From Microcaldota archaeon (GTDB lineage: Archaea; Micrarchaeota; Micrarchaeia; Norongarragalinales; UBA8480): a DNA stretch of 37,672 nucleotides. Positions 7,764-32,800 of this stretch are shown in pieces. Made by a program: the position numbers and the translations under genes. Each line of letters starts with the position of its first letter. Position 1 is the stretch's first letter. A model generated the notes under the pieces. It worked only from the letters and a program-made list of their open reading frames with translations, did no database searches and had not been told where the DNA came from. The stretch is taken from the NCBI GenBank assembly GCA_023247085.1, contig JAHFHC010000006.1:1-37672 (forward strand). Direction: 5' to 3'.

Positions 7764-8828
7764 ATGGAAGAAATCGTAAAATCAGCAATGCAGAGCACTT
7801 CAACATCTAAGTCACTTGGTGGCGATTTTGAAGAGATTAAAATAGTTGTAATGGGTTGTGGAGGCGCAGGCAACAATACGATTAACCGATTGAAGAGGCT
7901 CGGCATAAAAGGAGCTGAACTAGCTGCTTGTAATACTGACCGACAACACTTGTCACTCATGGAAGACGGGATTCACAAGGTATTAATCGGCAAAAGTATC
8001 ACAAAGGGACTTGGTGCAGGTGGTTTTCCAGAAGTTGGAGCTAAATGTGCAGAAGTTGATAGGCCAGAATTAGAGAAACTCCTTGCAGGGTCTCACTTAG
8101 TATTCGTAACTGCAGGTATGGGCGGTGGAACTGGAACCGGAAGTGCTCCAATAATTGCGCAAATTGCAAAAGAACAAGGCGCAATTGTAGTTGCAATGGT
8201 TTCATACCCATTTGCACTTGAACGCGCACGCGTCTTCAAAGCAGATGAAGGGATTCAAAGATTACGCCAAGTTGCGGATTCAGTTATCATTCTTGACAAC
8301 AACCGATTAGTTGAAATTGTGCCAAACTTGCCAATGAATCAAGCTTTCTTAGTGGCTGACGAAATTCTCGGCAAAGCAATTGGCGGATTAGTATTCACAA
8401 TCACTCAACCTTCATTAGTTAACATTGACTTTGCAGATGTCAGGGCAATTATGGGCAACGGAGATGTTGGAATGATTGCAGTTGGTAGTGGCAAGGGTTC
8501 AAACAAAGTTGAAGATGCAGTAAACGGGGTTATGAAGAACCGTTTGCTTGATGTTGACTTCGCTGGAGCAAAAGGAGCAATTATTCACATAGCTGGCGGT
8601 TCTGATTTAACTCTTGGTGATGCAATTAAAGCTGGTGAGATAATTACTGAGCAAATGGATCCAAATGCAAGTGTCAAATGGGGAGCAAGGCTCATTCCAG
8701 ATTACGATGGCAAGCTTGAAATAACCGCAATTGTCACAGGGGTAAGATCACCCCATATAGTTGGCCATGCGGCAGCTGAGAAGAAAAAAGCTAAAGAGCC
8801 AGGCTATGACATTGAGATAATCGGCTAA
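7764..8828 (+). CDS. ftsZ: Cell division GTPase FtsZ (copy 1)
   Basis: [25 protein letters not shown] tubulin signature, [12 protein letters not shown]7 loop. Confidence 0.95.
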
Positions 8829-9094: not shown

Positions 9095-10153
9095 ATGGAT
9101 GGATTAATAAGCGACGCATTGAGGAACTCAGCGCCAAAGACAAACAAGGCACTAGAAACTGGCAACGTCCAGATAACCGTCGTCGGAGTAGGCGGCGCAG
9201 GGACAAACACGGTACACCGTTTAAAGTCAATGGGACTTGAAAGTGCTAAAACACTTGCTATAAACACTGATGCTAACCACTTGAAAATAGTTGAAGCTGA
9301 CAAGAAATGCTTGATTGGAGCAAACTTAACTCGTGGTATGGGCGCAGGCGGGTTTCCTGAAGTTGGTATGAAAGCTGCTGAAAGTGCACGAGAAAAATTA
9401 ACTGAACTACTTTCAGGCAATGAACTAGTATTCATTACAGCTGGAATGGGCGGTGGAACCGGCACTGGCGCAGCTCCAGTTATTGCAGATATTGCTAAAA
9501 AAGCAGGGGCAATTACAATTGGAATCGTCACTTTCCCGTTTGTGCTTGAACGCGCTCGGCTTTCAAAGGCAGATTGGGGAATTGAAGAGCTTACAAAGGC
9601 TTGCGACACAGTCGTAATAGTTGACAACAACCGATTGGTTTCATATGTTCCAAACTTGCCAATGAATCAAGCTTTTGCAGTTGCAGACACACTAGTTGCA
9701 CGTGCAGTAAAAGGAATTGCTGACACAATTATGTTGCCTAGCTTGATGAACATTGACTTTGCCGACTTGAGGATGATCATGTCTGGCGGTGGAGTTTCAA
9801 TGATTTCAATTGGAGAAGGCAAAGGCACTGAACGAGTAGAAGGCGCGGTTAAATCTACGCTTGAACACCCGTTGCTTGACGTTGACTACACTGGTGCAAA
9901 AGGGGCTTTGGTTTTAATTCAAGGTGGCTCAAATTTAACTTTAGGTGAAGCAGTTAAAGTTGGAGAAGGGGTAACCGCTTCTTTTGACCAAAACGCGTAC
10001 GTCAAATGGGGCGCACGCATTGTGCCTGAACTAGGGGACAAGATAGTTGTAACTGCAGTGCTTACTGGCATTCAAAGCGATCAAATGGTTAGCCATGAAG
10101 TTGCAAAGCCAAATGCACCAGCTTCCTTTAGCCTAGACATGGTTAAATACTGA
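9095..10153 (+). CDS. ftsZ: Cell division GTPase FtsZ (copy 2)
   Basis: [35 protein letters not shown]; closely related to copy 1. Confidence 0.95.
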   Translation: MDGLISDALRNSAPKTNKALETGNVQITVVGVGGAGTNTVHRLKSMGLESAKTLAINTDANHLKIVEADKKCLIGANLTRGMGAGGFPEVGMKAAESAREKLTELLSGNELVFITAGMGGGTGTGAAPVIADIAKKAGAITIGIVTFPFVLERARLSKADWGIEELTKACDTVVIVDNNRLVSYVPNLPMNQAFAVADTLVARAVKGIADTIMLPSLMNIDFADLRMIMSGGGVSMISIGEGKGTERVEGAVKSTLEHPLLDVDYTGAKGALVLIQGGSNLTLGEAVKVGEGVTASFDQNAYVKWGARIVPELGDKIVVTAVLTGIQSDQMVSHEVAKPNAPASFSLDMVKY

Positions 10154-15295: not shown

Positions 15296-15871
15296 ATGAT
15301 AAAACAACTTAATTTATATAAAATTCGGGAAAAAGCACAGTACAGCGGTCGCGAAGTTTACTCTATTCAGCAACTCGCTAACTTAGCTGAAAGGCCAAAA
15401 ACTATTGCTAAAGTATATGCTAGTCGCTTAGTAAAAAAAGGACTTGCAAAGAGGCTCCTGCGGGGCAAAATAGCGTTTACTGATGACGACTACATAATTG
15501 CAACTCAATTAATTGAACCTAGCTACATTTCTCTGAGTTCAGCGTTGTTATTCCATGGGCTTATCCAACAGGTTCCTGTAGAAGTCGAATGCGTTTCTAC
15601 ACGTAATAGCTTTCGCTTTCCAAAACTAGGAATAACTTACCATAAAATTCCACCTTCGCTATTTTTTGGCTATGAAAAACATAGAAAGGGCAATAGCTAC
15701 ATATTTGTAGCCGAATCGGAAAAAGCATTAATAGACGCAGTTTATCTAGGCAAATTAAATAAAACCAGCGCACAGGTATTGCTTAAAAAAGTAGACAAAC
15801 GAAAAGTAATTCAATATTTAAAACGATTTAAAGGTCGAGGAAAGAAAAAACTTGAAAGGTATTTCAAATGA
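15296..15871 (+). CDS. AbiEi-like antitoxin (type IV TA), winged HTH N-terminus
   Basis: YSIQQLANLAERPKTIAKVYASRLVKKGLAKRLLRGKIAF, SALLFHGLIQQVP, AESEKALIDAVYL; followed by an AbiEii-like gene. Track ORF starts at TTG 15290. Confidence 0.8.
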   Translation: MIKQLNLYKIREKAQYSGREVYSIQQLANLAERPKTIAKVYASRLVKKGLAKRLLRGKIAFTDDDYIIATQLIEPSYISLSSALLFHGLIQQVPVEVECVSTRNSFRFPKLGITYHKIPPSLFFGYEKHRKGNSYIFVAESEKALIDAVYLGKLNKTSAQVLLKKVDKRKVIQYLKRFKGRGKKKLERYFK

Positions 15872-16617
15872 TTGATAAAAAAACACTAGAGCAAATTGCC
15901 AAATTAAACAATTTACGCCCGTGGCAACAAGAAAAACACTATTTACAAACGATGATATTAGAAGCTCTAGCAGATTATCCACTTGCATTTAAAGGCGGCA
16001 CTTACTTGTGGTTCTTTCATGGTTTGACGCGATTTTCTGAAGATCTTGACTTTACAATGCTCAGCGCAATAACTGAAGATTTAGCTACACGCGTTTCTGA
16101 AAATCTAAAATTATTTGGAGTAGAAAATACTTTAAAACCTATAAGCGATAATGACACTTCGTTGTCTTTTCGAATAAGTGCACGAGGGCCATTGAACACC
16201 TCAACTAGAGACTTATGCTATATTTATGTTGAGATAAGTAAACGAGAACAAGTTATTGAAAAGCCAATTACACTTAAACTCGAACCAGATGCGTATAATT
16301 TACCCGTTAAAATTTTGAACGGCATGGCACTGGAAGAAATTGCAAGTGAAAAGGTACGTGCAATCCTAACCCGCGATGCCCCACGCGACATATACGATTT
16401 GTATTTTTTAATAACTAAAAAGCAAGTGAAGTTCCAAAAAGAAATGGTGAACAAAAAATTAGAGTATTACAAAATAAATTTTGACCAACGAATATTTAAG
16501 AAAAAAATCGAAGAAGAAGAGAATACATGGAAAAAAGAACTACCAGCGTTTGTATTCAGTAGCTTACCTGACTTTAAAATCGTTGAAAAAACATTACTAG
16601 CATGGTGTAAAAAATAA
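15868..16617 (+). CDS. AbiEii-like nucleotidyltransferase toxin
   Basis: LAFKGGTYLWFFHGLTRFSEDLDFTML motif; ATGA overlap with AbiEi. Confidence 0.88.
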   Translation: MIDKKTLEQIAKLNNLRPWQQEKHYLQTMILEALADYPLAFKGGTYLWFFHGLTRFSEDLDFTMLSAITEDLATRVSENLKLFGVENTLKPISDNDTSLSFRISARGPLNTSTRDLCYIYVEISKREQVIEKPITLKLEPDAYNLPVKILNGMALEEIASEKVRAILTRDAPRDIYDLYFLITKKQVKFQKEMVNKKLEYYKINFDQRIFKKKIEEEENTWKKELPAFVFSSLPDFKIVEKTLLAWCKK

Positions 16618-17429: not shown

Positions 17430-17858
17430 TTACTTGCTATGCGGAAGAGGCACAAGATTTATACTTGGAATTGAATTAAACCCCGAGTCAAAAGTAGCTA
17501 AATGGGTTATCTCATTTTGCTTCATTAATTCAACCGTAGTACAATCTGTGAAACTCAATTTTCCACTCTGCGCAAGATAACGAGAAGTGCTTTCCTTAAA
17601 CAGGCCCTCATCGACACGTAAAAGGTTAAGCCCATCCAGTGACAACAAACGCTTTGCAAGACCCTTACTCAACGCTATATTTCCAGTACGGATGTACATA
17701 AGGGTAAGCGCCTCGTCAAATACGTAGTCGCTTGTGCAAATCCAGTTACCATATATTCCGGAGTTTATCTGGGATAAAATTTCAACGGCATTAGAATGCA
17801 GTGAATCGTCAATATTTGCCTCAGCTACAAGTATGCCGGTATCAAGAAAAACTGCCAT
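17430..17858 (-). CDS. PIN-domain toxin (VapC-like)
   Basis: MAVFLDTGILVAEAN ... FDEALTLMYIR ... LSFTDCTTVELM ... LATFDSGFNSI; GGTGATT SD upstream. Confidence 0.88.
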   Translation of the reverse strand: MAVFLDTGILVAEANIDDSLHSNAVEILSQINSGIYGNWICTSDYVFDEALTLMYIRTGNIALSKGLAKRLLSLDGLNLLRVDEGLFKESTSRYLAQSGKLSFTDCTTVELMKQNEITHLATFDSGFNSIPSINLVPLPHSK

Positions 17859-18355: not shown

Positions 18356-21300
18356 CTACTTGCCGCGGGAAGTTATATAGAAAGTGCCAATTTTGTTAAC
18401 TGAATCAATATTGCTTGGGTCAGTATTCACGTCGGTCGAGCCATCATCCGATTGGGCATAGGTTTGTATTTCTGGTTTGTCAACGCACTTGGTTGGCTGG
18501 CCATTGGCTTTTACTCGCAAGCTACGGAAGTCCAAATCAGTCCACACGTCAAAGTTTTCGCGTTTAATATTCGAATTGTCAGCGCAGTCTACATCTGAAC
18601 CACCTATTCCTAGGAACCCACCGCCGAAGTCCATGTTGCCGTTTTCATTTATACTTAAATAAGCACGACGCGGAACTTCCTCGTAAGCTGCGCCGCCCAT
18701 TATCAAAAGAGCTTGAGCACTTAACAACGGGCCACAAGCTGCAGTGTAAACCTGATCAAGCGTACCAACTGAAGCAGCAACATCATCTAACTTTGCTGCA
18801 CAAGATCGAGCATCTTGTCCATCTGAACAAGAGCCGGCAGAGATTGCTTCTTGTTTTGCCTCTTCTAAATCTGCTTTTGCGTTATCAACTATTTCTTTTT
18901 GTGATTTACTTAAATATTCAGCAGCTATAGGCTTTCCGTTAGGATACTTAAATTGTTCAGTGGCATCTTGTGCGCTTTTTATGTGGTCAGCTACTTTGGT
19001 CACGCCGCTTATTTGGTCGCGTACTGCTGCTGATGAAATTAGGGTTTTAAGCGCTTTTTGAATTGCGCACGAGCCATCGGGATTAAAGTCAGCATGTACG
19101 CCTGCTCCCCCTAAGCAGAGACATTTTGATAACGCGGCATCAACAACGTTTGGGCACGTGTACTGGGTTACTAACGTGGCGGTTTTGAAAAAGCTAACTG
19201 CGTTTGCAACGTCTAGTGCTGTGCCTGCGTAGCTACATGCAGCTGCCCATTTGCCTGTGAAACTCGCGAAGCCCGGCACATCCATATCTTCTGGACCCAA
19301 TGCTGAAGTTATTGCATCCGTAATGCGGTTTCCTGCCGCAAGGTCATACACCTGGTTACCTACAAAACTACCTAGAATTGAACCAACCATTGCGCCGCCT
19401 GGACCAAAAGGCGCGCCTGCTGCACATCCGGCAGGAGTAGTTAATAGTTCTGTTGCAACGCATGAAGCTACCCCGTTTGCCATTGCAGCTACCCACTTAG
19501 ATGCTAGTGTTTCGCGTCTTGATGCTGAATCTTGCCGGAAGTCATTTACTTTGAAAGTGTCTTTGTTGCATAGTGAGCCAGTTGTTCCAAGTGACGCGTT
19601 GTAATACCATCCGTCTCCGCAGTTGTTGATGCATTGGCCGCCGTTAAATGACAGTTTTCCGCATAAGGATAAAGTGTTTGAGCACCCGAAGGTTGCGTAG
19701 TCAAGTGAGCCAACGGATATTGGCGCGTATTTTTTGTCTTGTTGTACGTTGCCATCTTCGGGTCTAATTAAGTATTGCCAGTTGTAGTCGTAGACTCCTT
19801 CTTCGTTGCGCTGGGTGCATTTTTCTCCTGATAAACCTTGGAATTCAAAGTCAATTTTGCCAACTCCTTCTTTGCCAGTCCACAGTGCACCGCCAAGGTG
19901 GTAAGTAATTGGAGTTTGCTTAATGTCTACGAATACATTGTATGGAAACATTCCAAATGGACACGGGCGCGGCGGGTTACAGTCTTGTCTCCTGCGGAAA
20001 GCAGTGTTGCGTAGTACATTTAGCACTTCATTGCGGCTAGATTCCATTGACTGCGGTTGATCTTCAAAAGTAATAGTAGTTGAGCCACTGACACTATTTG
20101 CTAGTGATAATTGCTGCCCAGGGGCATGAATATCAAGTAAGTCAACAGAATCTGAACTTATGCCAAATAAGCTAGGCAGCGCCTCATCTCGTGTTAATAT
20201 TGGCTTTATTCCTTGAGTTGGAACTACAACTGCGTTGTCAAGTACGAGATAGTCAGTTGCGTCGGCTTCGGTTTCTCCTTGAAATATGCGCACGTATTTG
20301 TCTGCAGAGTATTGTCGGTTGTTGAGTAAAACGTGCATGAATGAAGCGTCTACGCCTAGTGCTGGAACTGCTGGTTCATCCCATACTTTTGGCGCTAATC
20401 GAACTGCTTGATATTCTGGTTTAAAGTTGACGGCTGCAGATGCAGGCGCTTGAGGCAGCGTCGCAGGTATGCTGCTGTCGAGAGCAAGACTTGGTGCAAC
20501 TTTTATGTTTAGTGGGATTTCAATTGCTTTTTGTGTGCATGTTGAAACTACGCGTAGAGTTGAAGCGTTTTTTGTAACTTTTACGCTGTTTGGATCTTTT
20601 GAATAGTACGCGCACCTGTTTGTAGATGCGTCGTATTTCATCATTAGTAATTTGTTTCCATAAGTGGAGTACTCTTCTGGCAAAGAGAGAACTGACTTGG
20701 GGTCATTCACTTGTTCAAAACAGCCACTGCTGTCAAAAGTTTGGAACACTAGCTCTTGGCAAGGTGAAGAAGAGAAGTTGAACAATAGCAAAGCTGCATC
20801 TGCAGGTAGCAACGGGTCAACGTAGAAGTCAATACCAGTGCCAGTAACGTTTGTTGCTGTAGAGCCGTTGACCGACAATAAAGTTAAATCATCTTGAGTT
20901 GGGTTAGATGGTGAAGCATTGTAAAGCAGCACATAGTGTGATGGCAATGCAGATAGTGCAACTGCTTCTTGTGGCAAGCCAAGCATGTTTACTGTTGTTG
21001 CAAGTGTTACTTTGTTGCCGTAGGCTAAATTAATAGTATAGTCTGGAATCGCTTGAAGTGAAGTTGGAGTCGATAAGATATCTCCAGTGACTCTTGCAGG
21101 TGTTTTGGAAACAGCGTGGTAAGTGTTGTCGGTAATTGTGACTTTGAAACTAGCTGCGTTTACTGGCATGCGTTGTTCATCTTGTCGGATTATTGCTAAA
21201 ACGTTTTTGTCAGTTTTGAAAGTTAATTCAGTTCCAGCATCAAAATCAGGGTTAAAGTCTAAAATTGAGTAAAAGAGAGATAAACGTTGTGGGAACGTGT

Positions 21301-29813: not shown

Positions 29814-32800
29814 TTAGCTTTTGACTTTAAATGTAATCAATTTTTCGGATGTGTCAAGTGACTTCGTGTAGATTTTGACATTGTTGGCATCTTTGCACGT
29901 TTCAACTTTATTTTCACGCGCCCACAAGTCACCGAAATTACAATCCTGGTAAACAAAATAAGAGCCTAAATTATTCTGCCAAGGAGTACAAGTTTTTCCG
30001 TTTATCGCTACATACGCGCGATTGGGCAACGCTTTTTCTTCAGTTGCAGCATTAGCAATCCAAGAACCTATTAAGCCAAGAAAGCGGGTTCCTACAAGCG
30101 TGTTACAAGCGGCAGCTATTACAGATGCACCTGGAGCTGCGTCTGGCGCCACTATAGGCGCCGCAAAGGGAGTTTCATAACAAACCTGTTGGAAAGGTAG
30201 AAAATATCCCCCGAGAATAAATTCATTGACAGCTGCGCCGGCTACTGCAAGTGTTGATTCAGCTACTAAGTCACAACCAGTTGGACCATCCGCTAATGCA
30301 GATTGTATACCATACGTTGCTCCAATTGCTGTTGCTCCAGCAGTTAAAGCGCAACCAAGTTCTTTGGGACTACAAGCAGTTTCCTTTGCAATCCCTGCAG
30401 CGGTACAAGCAGCAGGACCCGCAGGGGTAGTAACCGCCGGTGGTGAACAAGCAGTAGCCGCGGTTGCTATCGCCGCTTCGCATGTATGTTGGGCTATAAC
30501 CGTACAAGCAGAAGTAGCCGCGCAACCCGCAACGTAGCAAGAACCGAGTTCAGCTACTAGTTTCAATATTTTTGTGCCTTCAACTGTTTTGTGGAAGGTG
30601 TTTACAGTGAATGTATTTCCATCGCAAAGTGCGCCTGCATCACCTTCTGTTAAACCATAGTAGGTTCCGTCGCCGCAAGTGGCAAGGCAGCTTTGACGCC
30701 AAGTTAATGCATTGCCTTGCAAGGGTTGTTCAGGTGCAGCGCATTGTTCGTCGTAATAATCAATTGAACTTATTGACAGTGGCGTGGCTTTTGTTTTCCA
30801 TTGATAACCTTGAGCGGTTTTTTCGTAATTTATTGAAATTGAATAAACTCCTTGTTGGCTTTTGCCATCAGAGTCTTTAGTAGCGAATTCAACTGACTCT
30901 AAATTTGCTTTGTGTTCTCGGTTTACACCTAGATACGCTGCGCCTAGTTGGTAGGAAAAGTCTTTATTTGGTTCAAAAGCTGAAAATGGAAACGTTTTGA
31001 ACTTGCAATTTGCATCAGAATCGCAACCAAGTGGAGCACGGCGAAAAACAGTGTTCGCTGCGATTATACGCGCTTCGTGCAGGGCGTTGGCTAGTTGCTG
31101 AGATTCAATTTCTTTATCGAATAAGTCTTCAGTGAACAAGCGAGGGGAATATGGTGGCGAAGGTGAATTTAGCTCCTGGCTAAGGTCTTTACCGCCTGAA
31201 AGAGTGCTTTTGGCGTTTGTTGAACGAGGTTGTTGTAAAACTATGCTTGAGCCTGAATTGTCATTTAAGTAACCTGTGTTTCCACCAATGAAAACAGATG
31301 AATCGCGCGTGTGCTGTCGGTTTACAAGCATTGCCCATAACTGGTGGGGGGTTTCAGACAATAAATTGCCAGTATCGCCTAAGTCATCGTCTGGTTCGCT
31401 GAAGATGCGCTGTGTTTGTAAACCCCTATAAAAATCTGTGTCCATTTGGCTGGCGACACCCGGATGTAGCGAAACGTGAATCGGAAACTCGTTTATTGAT
31501 GTACCACAAGTGAGTTTGACGTTGAGTTTAGCATTTGCCTCGTTTACTGTATTTAAGTCAACGCTGTACGCTGAGCAGCCGCTTCCAGATGCATCGTATT
31601 TTAGTAACTTTAAGCCGCGTTTCGAATCGCCAGTTGCAAAGTCGTCAGGTGCATCCGTGATTTCAAAGCAAGTTGAGTCTTGTGTTAATTGCAAGAGGAA
31701 ATCATTTTCGCCACCCTCGCATTGTGAAGAAGAATAGTTAAGGCGCAAGAGAACCGCGTCTGCTGGGAAAATTGGGTCAGTGTACATTTGAATTGAATTT
31801 CTAGTTTGTTGGCTTGACGTGCTTTGTTCTTTTAGTGAAAATGAATTTGTGTTTGTTTCAAAACTAATTGTATAGAAATTTGGCAAGCCAGCGAGTTGTA
31901 CAAGTGGTTCTGGGGGAGCAGTTACTTCAATTGGTAACTCTAGGCTTATTTTATTTCCGTAAACGAGTTTGAGTTTTTCAGAGGCTTTTTTGTTTTGTAC
32001 AGCTGACGAAATTGTTCCGTGTATTTTAAATTTGTCGGAAGTGGTTTCAAATTTGTTTTCTCCTGTGTTTATTGAACCAATTTCAGTTGTGTGGCCTGGG
32101 TCAAGTTGAAGCACATCTGCGGGCGGGCTAAATGATAACACTGAGGGAGTTTGTTGGAAGTTTAGCACTTCGTAATTTATTTCTAGATTTTTGCCAGTTT
32201 CTTGAGTTGGTCTTGCAGCTAGTGAAGAAAATGAAATTGTTTCTCCTTGTTGGAGTGACGCTTTGATGCACGCGTATGCATTGCACTTCGCTTGTTCTTT
32301 TTGTTCTACTTTTAATGGAATTGACTCTGTTCTGCCGTCGCACCATTTTTTGTCACTTGAAGAAAAGCTTTCTTTGAGGGTTAAATCATATGGAAAACGA
32401 ATTGTTTTTGCGCTATCAGCAGTATTATCCGCTTGGAAAATAGTCAGCGAGAAATACTGGAGGCTAGTTGCACCTGGAGAAAGCGCCATTATTGGGATTG
32501 TTGTTTCCACGAAGTCACTTTGAGTAGAGGCAATTGACCCCCCTCCATAAATCCATTTGTATACCCCAAAACCGTTTTGTTCGACATTTGAATCACATTG
32601 GCCAGTTGAAGCGGATTGCGATGCGTTGACAATAGGCGAGTAGAAAATTGAGCCAGGTAATGCATTGTCTGGAGATGAGAAAAGGAGCCCGGCAGGTGCA
32701 TTGTCAGAAGTGATTGATTCACCGACATTACCGATTCTCGCGTATAACCCATATTGGTTTGCAGTTGTTCCTTTATTTGTACGAAGCATAAACTTAGCGG

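Follow-up and report, generated by a model that had tools for sequence, protein, structure and literature searches.

The question raised by this locus is what a glycine-rich segment near the far end of a giant archaeal protein is for. A preliminary description of the DNA had likened the segment to glycine-zipper or membrane-inserting sequences and had proposed that, carried at the distal end of an anchored stalk, it might insert into the membrane of a partner cell. The window, i.e., the whole stretch of DNA analyzed (bases 1-37672 of a 46585-base contig in a 0.89-Mb metagenome-assembled genome related to Candidatus Micrarchaeota), carries four giant proteins, P1, P2, P3, and P4, all encoded on the minus strand, and the segment belongs to P2.

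The Giant Proteins and Their Anchor

The P2 gene (18356..23932, minus strand, TTG start, as given in the list of open reading frames) encodes 1858 aa, predicted to form an N-terminally anchored giant surface protein. P1 (10311..15122, minus, 1603 aa) and P3 (29814..34784, minus, 1656 aa) are its paralogs, and a further giant paralog, P4, is located 49 bp upstream of P3; the C-terminal part of P4 (34834..37671, minus) lies in the window, while its N-terminus, beyond the window in locus L007, carries an anchor of the same kind as that of P1-P3. Each of the latter has one strong N-terminal hydrophobic helix followed, as is characteristic of the family, by domains matching PF13620 (carboxypeptidase regulatory-like, with an Ig/prealbumin-type fold) above the Pfam cut-off, with E=5.8e-12 in P1 and E=1.8e-16, over three stretches, in P2. 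P2 and P3 are 25% identical across P2 aa 3-1501 (BLAST, E=9e-79).

Orthologs of P2 are present in the genomes G002, G001, and G004, and an ortholog is carried by a contig of Candidatus Micrarchaeota archaeon isolate nzgw34, the best segment being 90% identical. Relatives of P2 occur in 27 of the 60 genomes searched, nearly all of them within the same order. In G002, where P1 comes directly after P2, the P2 ortholog (L041, G002:C121) is broken across reading frames at about 4700 and 8100; the contig is of low coverage, and these breaks are possibly assembly errors. The interval between P2 and P1 is occupied in the window by an AbiEii-type nucleotidyltransferase gene and a PIN-domain gene (15868-16617 and 17430-17858) and in G001 by another small ORF. 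Two tandem FtsZ genes were identified in the window with Pfam (7764-8828 and 9095-10153), and a third FtsZ-like ORF was read from the sequence of the same contig (L007:4390-5604).

Membrane segments were assessed with simple hydropathy scales and with our own approximate position-weighted dG, which is not a validated published predictor, so that the dG values given here are crude ones. On these scales, aa 43-61 of P2 (23750..23806, minus; KD 2.77, crude dG -4.4), directly after KGIPS, form the sole TM-grade helix of the protein. The placement proposed in the preliminary description is supported: the strong N-terminal TM helix is followed by the PF13620 domains, and the glycine-rich segment lies at about 80% of the length. 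The motif preceding the TM helix (P2 aa 36-45, window positions 23827-23798, minus) is of the G-[IV]-P-S-[FL]-P type, reading KGIPSLP in P2 and KGVPSIL in P3, and is common to most members of the family. Often in the fuller form E-x-[KR]-G-[IV]-P-S-[FL]-P, it stands before the single N-terminal TM helix of nearly every giant protein of the order; G-x-P was counted in 54 of the 57 N-complete giants, some of these matches lying farther from the TM helix, and P1 has no such pre-TM motif. It is possibly a sorting or processing signal. A prepilin-peptidase-like reading (KG/IPSFP) was set aside, since a Pro occupies position +2 and the residue at the K position varies. One protein, L099 (G024:C70), carries a TM-grade helix, ILLPLLLMALAFFVIGPAI, near its C-terminus (aa 2059, crude dG -3.6), and may thus have an anchor at each end or insert through its distal part.

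The Glycine Zipper of P2

The segment singled out in the preliminary description, within 19250-19500, comprises the 44 residues of P2 aa 1498-1541 (19310..19441, minus). Its core, aa 1502-1525 (19358..19429, minus), contains two runs of glycines spaced four residues apart (1502, 1506, and 1510, then 1513, 1517, 1521, and 1525), with a PFGPG turn between them, the second run amounting to a full GxxxGxxxGxxxG. The five GxxxG pairs present in a 47-aa segment exceed what is expected from the local composition (shuffle p=0.003). The longest zipper chain gave a shuffle p of 0.02 locally, 0.013 within a 287-aa insert, and 0.05 in the whole protein, and the number of GxxxG pairs over the whole of P2 gave p=0.15.

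Congeneric proteins that are 80% and about 42% identical to P2 also have the zipper. Its glycines are conserved in 8/8 cases in G002 and 7/8 in G001, where the aligned region is 42% identical overall and 7/13 of the non-zipper glycines are kept. We take this selective conservation to be stronger evidence for a zipper than the chance statistics, and the resemblance noted at the outset, which involves seven glycines at four-residue spacing, is upheld. In the protein of G004, which comes from a different genus of the family and is about 30% identical, GPGGA is retained and the zipper register is lost. The conserved residues Cys 1490 and Cys 1503 flank the first zipper arm. Charged residues account for 3.9% of aa 1480-1530 vs. 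15.7% of the whole of P2, and the longest charge-poor stretch of the protein is unexceptional (shuffle p=0.29).

On the scales used, the segment is predicted to be neither a TM helix nor an amphipathic one. The best stretch across the zipper has a KD of 0.7, a hydrophobic moment of 0.25, and a crude dG of +3.5, as against -4.4 for the anchor, and stretches of the Ig-like stalk score similarly on the same scales. The near absence of charge nevertheless suggests that the segment should be buried somewhere. Since a segment of this kind would first have to cross the cell's own membrane, it could hardly be strongly hydrophobic, and its moderate hydropathy would be compatible with insertion.

No match to the glycine-zipper families PF05433 and PF13441 was obtained in the distal regions of P2 or P3 in a Pfam search up to E 10; among the paralogs, only L079 of G010 showed sub-threshold matches to these families in its distal region. 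The P2 zipper weakly resembles DUF6861 (E=0.07) and also C19orf12 (E=0.26), but both matches fall far short of the cut-off.

The Tips of P2 and P3

The zipper lies in a distal insert predicted, on low-confidence secondary structure, to be helical with beta-rich flanks (P2 aa 1465-1750, 18683..19540, minus), which contains 10 Cys. A second putative helix, ACGPLLSAQALLIMGGAAY (aa 1732-1750, 18683..18739, minus), is moderately hydrophobic, being the most hydrophobic 19-mer outside the anchor on a crude scale, and ends just before a PRRAYLSIN strand. The insert is followed by a C-terminal domain (aa 1751-1858 plus stop, 18356..18682, minus) common to P3 and to the G002, G001, and G004 proteins. 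AlphaFold2 models of P2 aa 1290-1858 (4-row alignment, pLDDT 29.7) and aa 1440-1765 (3-row alignment, pLDDT 33.2), based on alignments without the order-wide homologs, are of low confidence; they suggest that the insert contains helices and that these are interrupted at the PFGPG turn. No homolog was found in PDB sequence searches with P2 and the tip profile, and searches of Pfam, NCBIfam, and PHROGs gave nothing significant for the tip. The P2/P3 type of tip was found in only two genera.

P3 had been described as having a comparable Ala/Gly/Cys-rich run. As regards composition and position this is true: P3 aa 1409-1559 (30108..30560, minus) contain 27% Ala, 10 Cys, and 8% charged residues. 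It does not hold for the motif, since no zipper chain of the P2 kind occurs in this region and the zipper columns correspond to a gap in P3 in the alignment; the possibility that P3 carries a second zipper was rejected for this reason. The C-terminal motif said to be shared by the two proteins is indeed homologous: it starts with EEVPRRAYLSIN at P2 aa 1751 and with EKALPNRAYVAIN at P3 aa 1583, the P3 domain covering aa 1583-1656 plus stop (29814..30038, minus). This pair (BLAST E=6e-4, shuffle p=0.0015) is collinear with the match over P2 aa 3-1501, so that P2 and P3 would have the same distal layout, in which a helical insert separates a beta-rich region from the shared C-terminal domain; the insert measures about 290 aa in P2 and about 175 aa in P3.

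Distal Regions across the Order

About 60 giant proteins were collected, of which 37 anchored ones are complete. In these 37, the 60-mer richest in G+A tends to be distal, its relative position having a median of 0.81 (KS p=3e-5). Of the 14 best hydrophobic stretches with a crude dG <1.5, 12 fall within the final 30% of the chain. Hydrophobic zipper-like patches are about twice as frequent as expected from shuffles (34 vs. 16.4), and 24 of the 27 occurring in complete proteins are located in the last 30% (nominal p=3e-10). Homology among the tips inflates this value: once homologous tips are collapsed, using our own grouping of related tips, 6 of 9 patches remain in the last 30% (p=0.025). Taken one by one, most hydrophobicity minima lie no deeper than those of shuffled sequences; the order-wide pattern resides in position and not in any single segment. 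The clearest distal zipper array seen among the giants is that of L079 (G010:C20), an anchored protein of 2337 aa in which four zipper patches occur at aa 2091-2250, within the final 12% of the chain.

Another distal module, the A4 tip (loci L101-L130), was found in 25 of the order's 29 genomes and in none of 217 genomes sampled from the rest of the class, and most of its carriers have a single A4 protein or apparent pieces of one. Its helical region, between two conserved Cys sites, has a charge of about 6-10% and a G+A content of 28-35%, whereas the charge is mostly in the range of roughly 20-25% elsewhere in the module. The P2/P3 tip shows no profile homology to it (hhalign probability <1%), and a search of the window's genome (G000) with the A4 profile did not find P2 and P3, which are thus not A4 members. 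Although no homology is detectable between them, the two kinds of distal module have the same chemical character. In the window's genome, an N-terminal A4 piece (L050, G000:C20:3-4766) runs off the end of its contig and a C-terminal piece is found at G000:C11:7741-8445 (L113); the two probably belong to one A4 giant protein.

Possible Role of the Tip

The reading we prefer, with a probability of about 0.5, is that P2 is an adhesive stalk with a zipper-packed helical tip domain. P2 would stand on the cell surface as a giant stalk, fixed by its single N-terminal membrane helix and with the C-terminus outside the cell, and its far end would consist of a beta-rich domain bearing a helical, Cys-containing insert, in which disulfides might form. 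Within this insert, the 44-residue segment might fold into a glycine-zipper helical hairpin (arm, PFGPG turn, arm). As the zipper glycines would fall on one face of the helix and the other residues are almost all uncharged, the hairpin is expected to be buried. It would most probably pack onto other tip helices, whether of its own chain or, by oligomerization, of neighboring tips, and this packing might give the stalk a compact end with which to touch a partner cell. The Ala/Cys-rich composition of P3 without a zipper and the loss of register in G004 are as expected of a variable packing module.

The distal charge depletion observed across the order suits a membrane role equally well as packing. 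The tip might be a membrane-inserting one, in which the zipper hairpin is protected during secretion, inserts on contact into the partner's membrane or the cell's own, and oligomerizes via its glycines, as in TelE (PMC10434224) or CdzC/D (PMC5380434), which provide precedents. The excess of zipper-like patches and their distal concentration, which persists on collapsing, are in keeping with insertion, as are the contrast between the Cys-bounded A4 region (G+A about 0.3) and most of the remaining module (about 22% charge) and the faint zipper similarities to DUF6861 and C19orf12. We nevertheless regard insertion as rather unlikely: the P2 zipper does not reach TM-grade hydrophobicity, the conserved Cys point to an extracellular domain that is folded, P3 has no zipper, no toxin domain was found, and single hydrophobicity minima mostly do no better than shuffles. 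Still less probable is compositional drift, by which low-complexity helices rich in Ala and Gly would pile up in an insert under little constraint, the zipper having no special role. The whole-protein shuffles (p 0.05-0.15) and the Ala/Cys-rich tips of P3 and G004 lacking the register would fit such drift, but the zipper glycines are kept at 7/8 despite the low overall identity in G001, and the patches are concentrated distally throughout the order.

A bolder proposal would be that, on the giant N-terminally anchored stalks of the order, distal modules of no common origin have repeatedly gained helical glycine-zipper hairpins, uncharged and bounded by Cys, which insert into partner membranes on contact, making up an archaeal contact or penetration apparatus unrelated to SPEARE or known toxins; this we consider unlikely. 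If the distal hairpins are membrane-active, the family points to a protein, and to residues within it, by which small DPANN archaea may take hold of a partner or enter it. Should the hairpins serve for packing alone, what is left is still a set of order-specific giant surface stalks with a recognizable anchor motif, and the near-universal A4 member can be used as a marker for the order.

Comparison with Known Systems

CdzC and CdzD are contact-dependent, surface-displayed glycine-zipper bacteriocins of Caulobacter (PMC5380434), and TelE is a T7SS LXG effector with a C-terminal glycine zipper, a glycine of which is needed for toxicity (PMC10434224). GxxxG repeats in which the intervening residues are mostly small or hydrophobic, as is typical of toxins of this kind, also occur in P2, and P2 is presumably surface-displayed like CdzC/CdzD. 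These bacteriocins are, however, 84-86 aa long, type I secreted, and mostly zipper, whereas P2 has a 24-aa zipper in an 1858-aa protein, with an N-terminal TM anchor in place of a small protein's type I leader. As in TelE, a conserved zipper lies toward the C-terminus of P2, within a region that is helical (in P2, at low confidence); the membrane damage and glycine dependence of TelE are experimental, whereas P2 is known from its sequence. No LXG domain was matched by Pfam. The GxxxG helices of the PF05433 and PF13441 families are also like those of P2, yet P2 does not match these families.

For the giant surface proteins of Nanohaloarchaeota, SPEARE among them, a role in contact with the host has been suggested (PMC6642349, PMC10266531). 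Like them, P2 and P3 are giant, mostly extracellular, and membrane-anchored proteins of a DPANN archaeon with Ig-like/adhesive domains, as far as can be predicted here. SPEARE proteins are mostly anchored near the C-terminus and have a conserved cytoplasmic part, read in the later paper as a VirB4/TraG-like ATPase (PMC6642349, PMC10266531), whereas P2 and P3 have an N-terminal anchor after a GIPS-type motif and would end outside the cell; one published SPEARE is also anchored N-terminally. VirB4/TraG-like ATPase, helicase-like, laminin-G, and protease domains had no Pfam match in P1-P3 or the part of P4 lying in the window. The tubes seen to bridge the cells of one DPANN pair have been attributed to the host (PMC11329633), which calls for caution in assuming penetration from the symbiont's side. 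Judging from their sequences, the P2-type stalks seem to be a variant within the giant surface proteins of DPANN archaea, differing from SPEARE in both their anchor and their domains.
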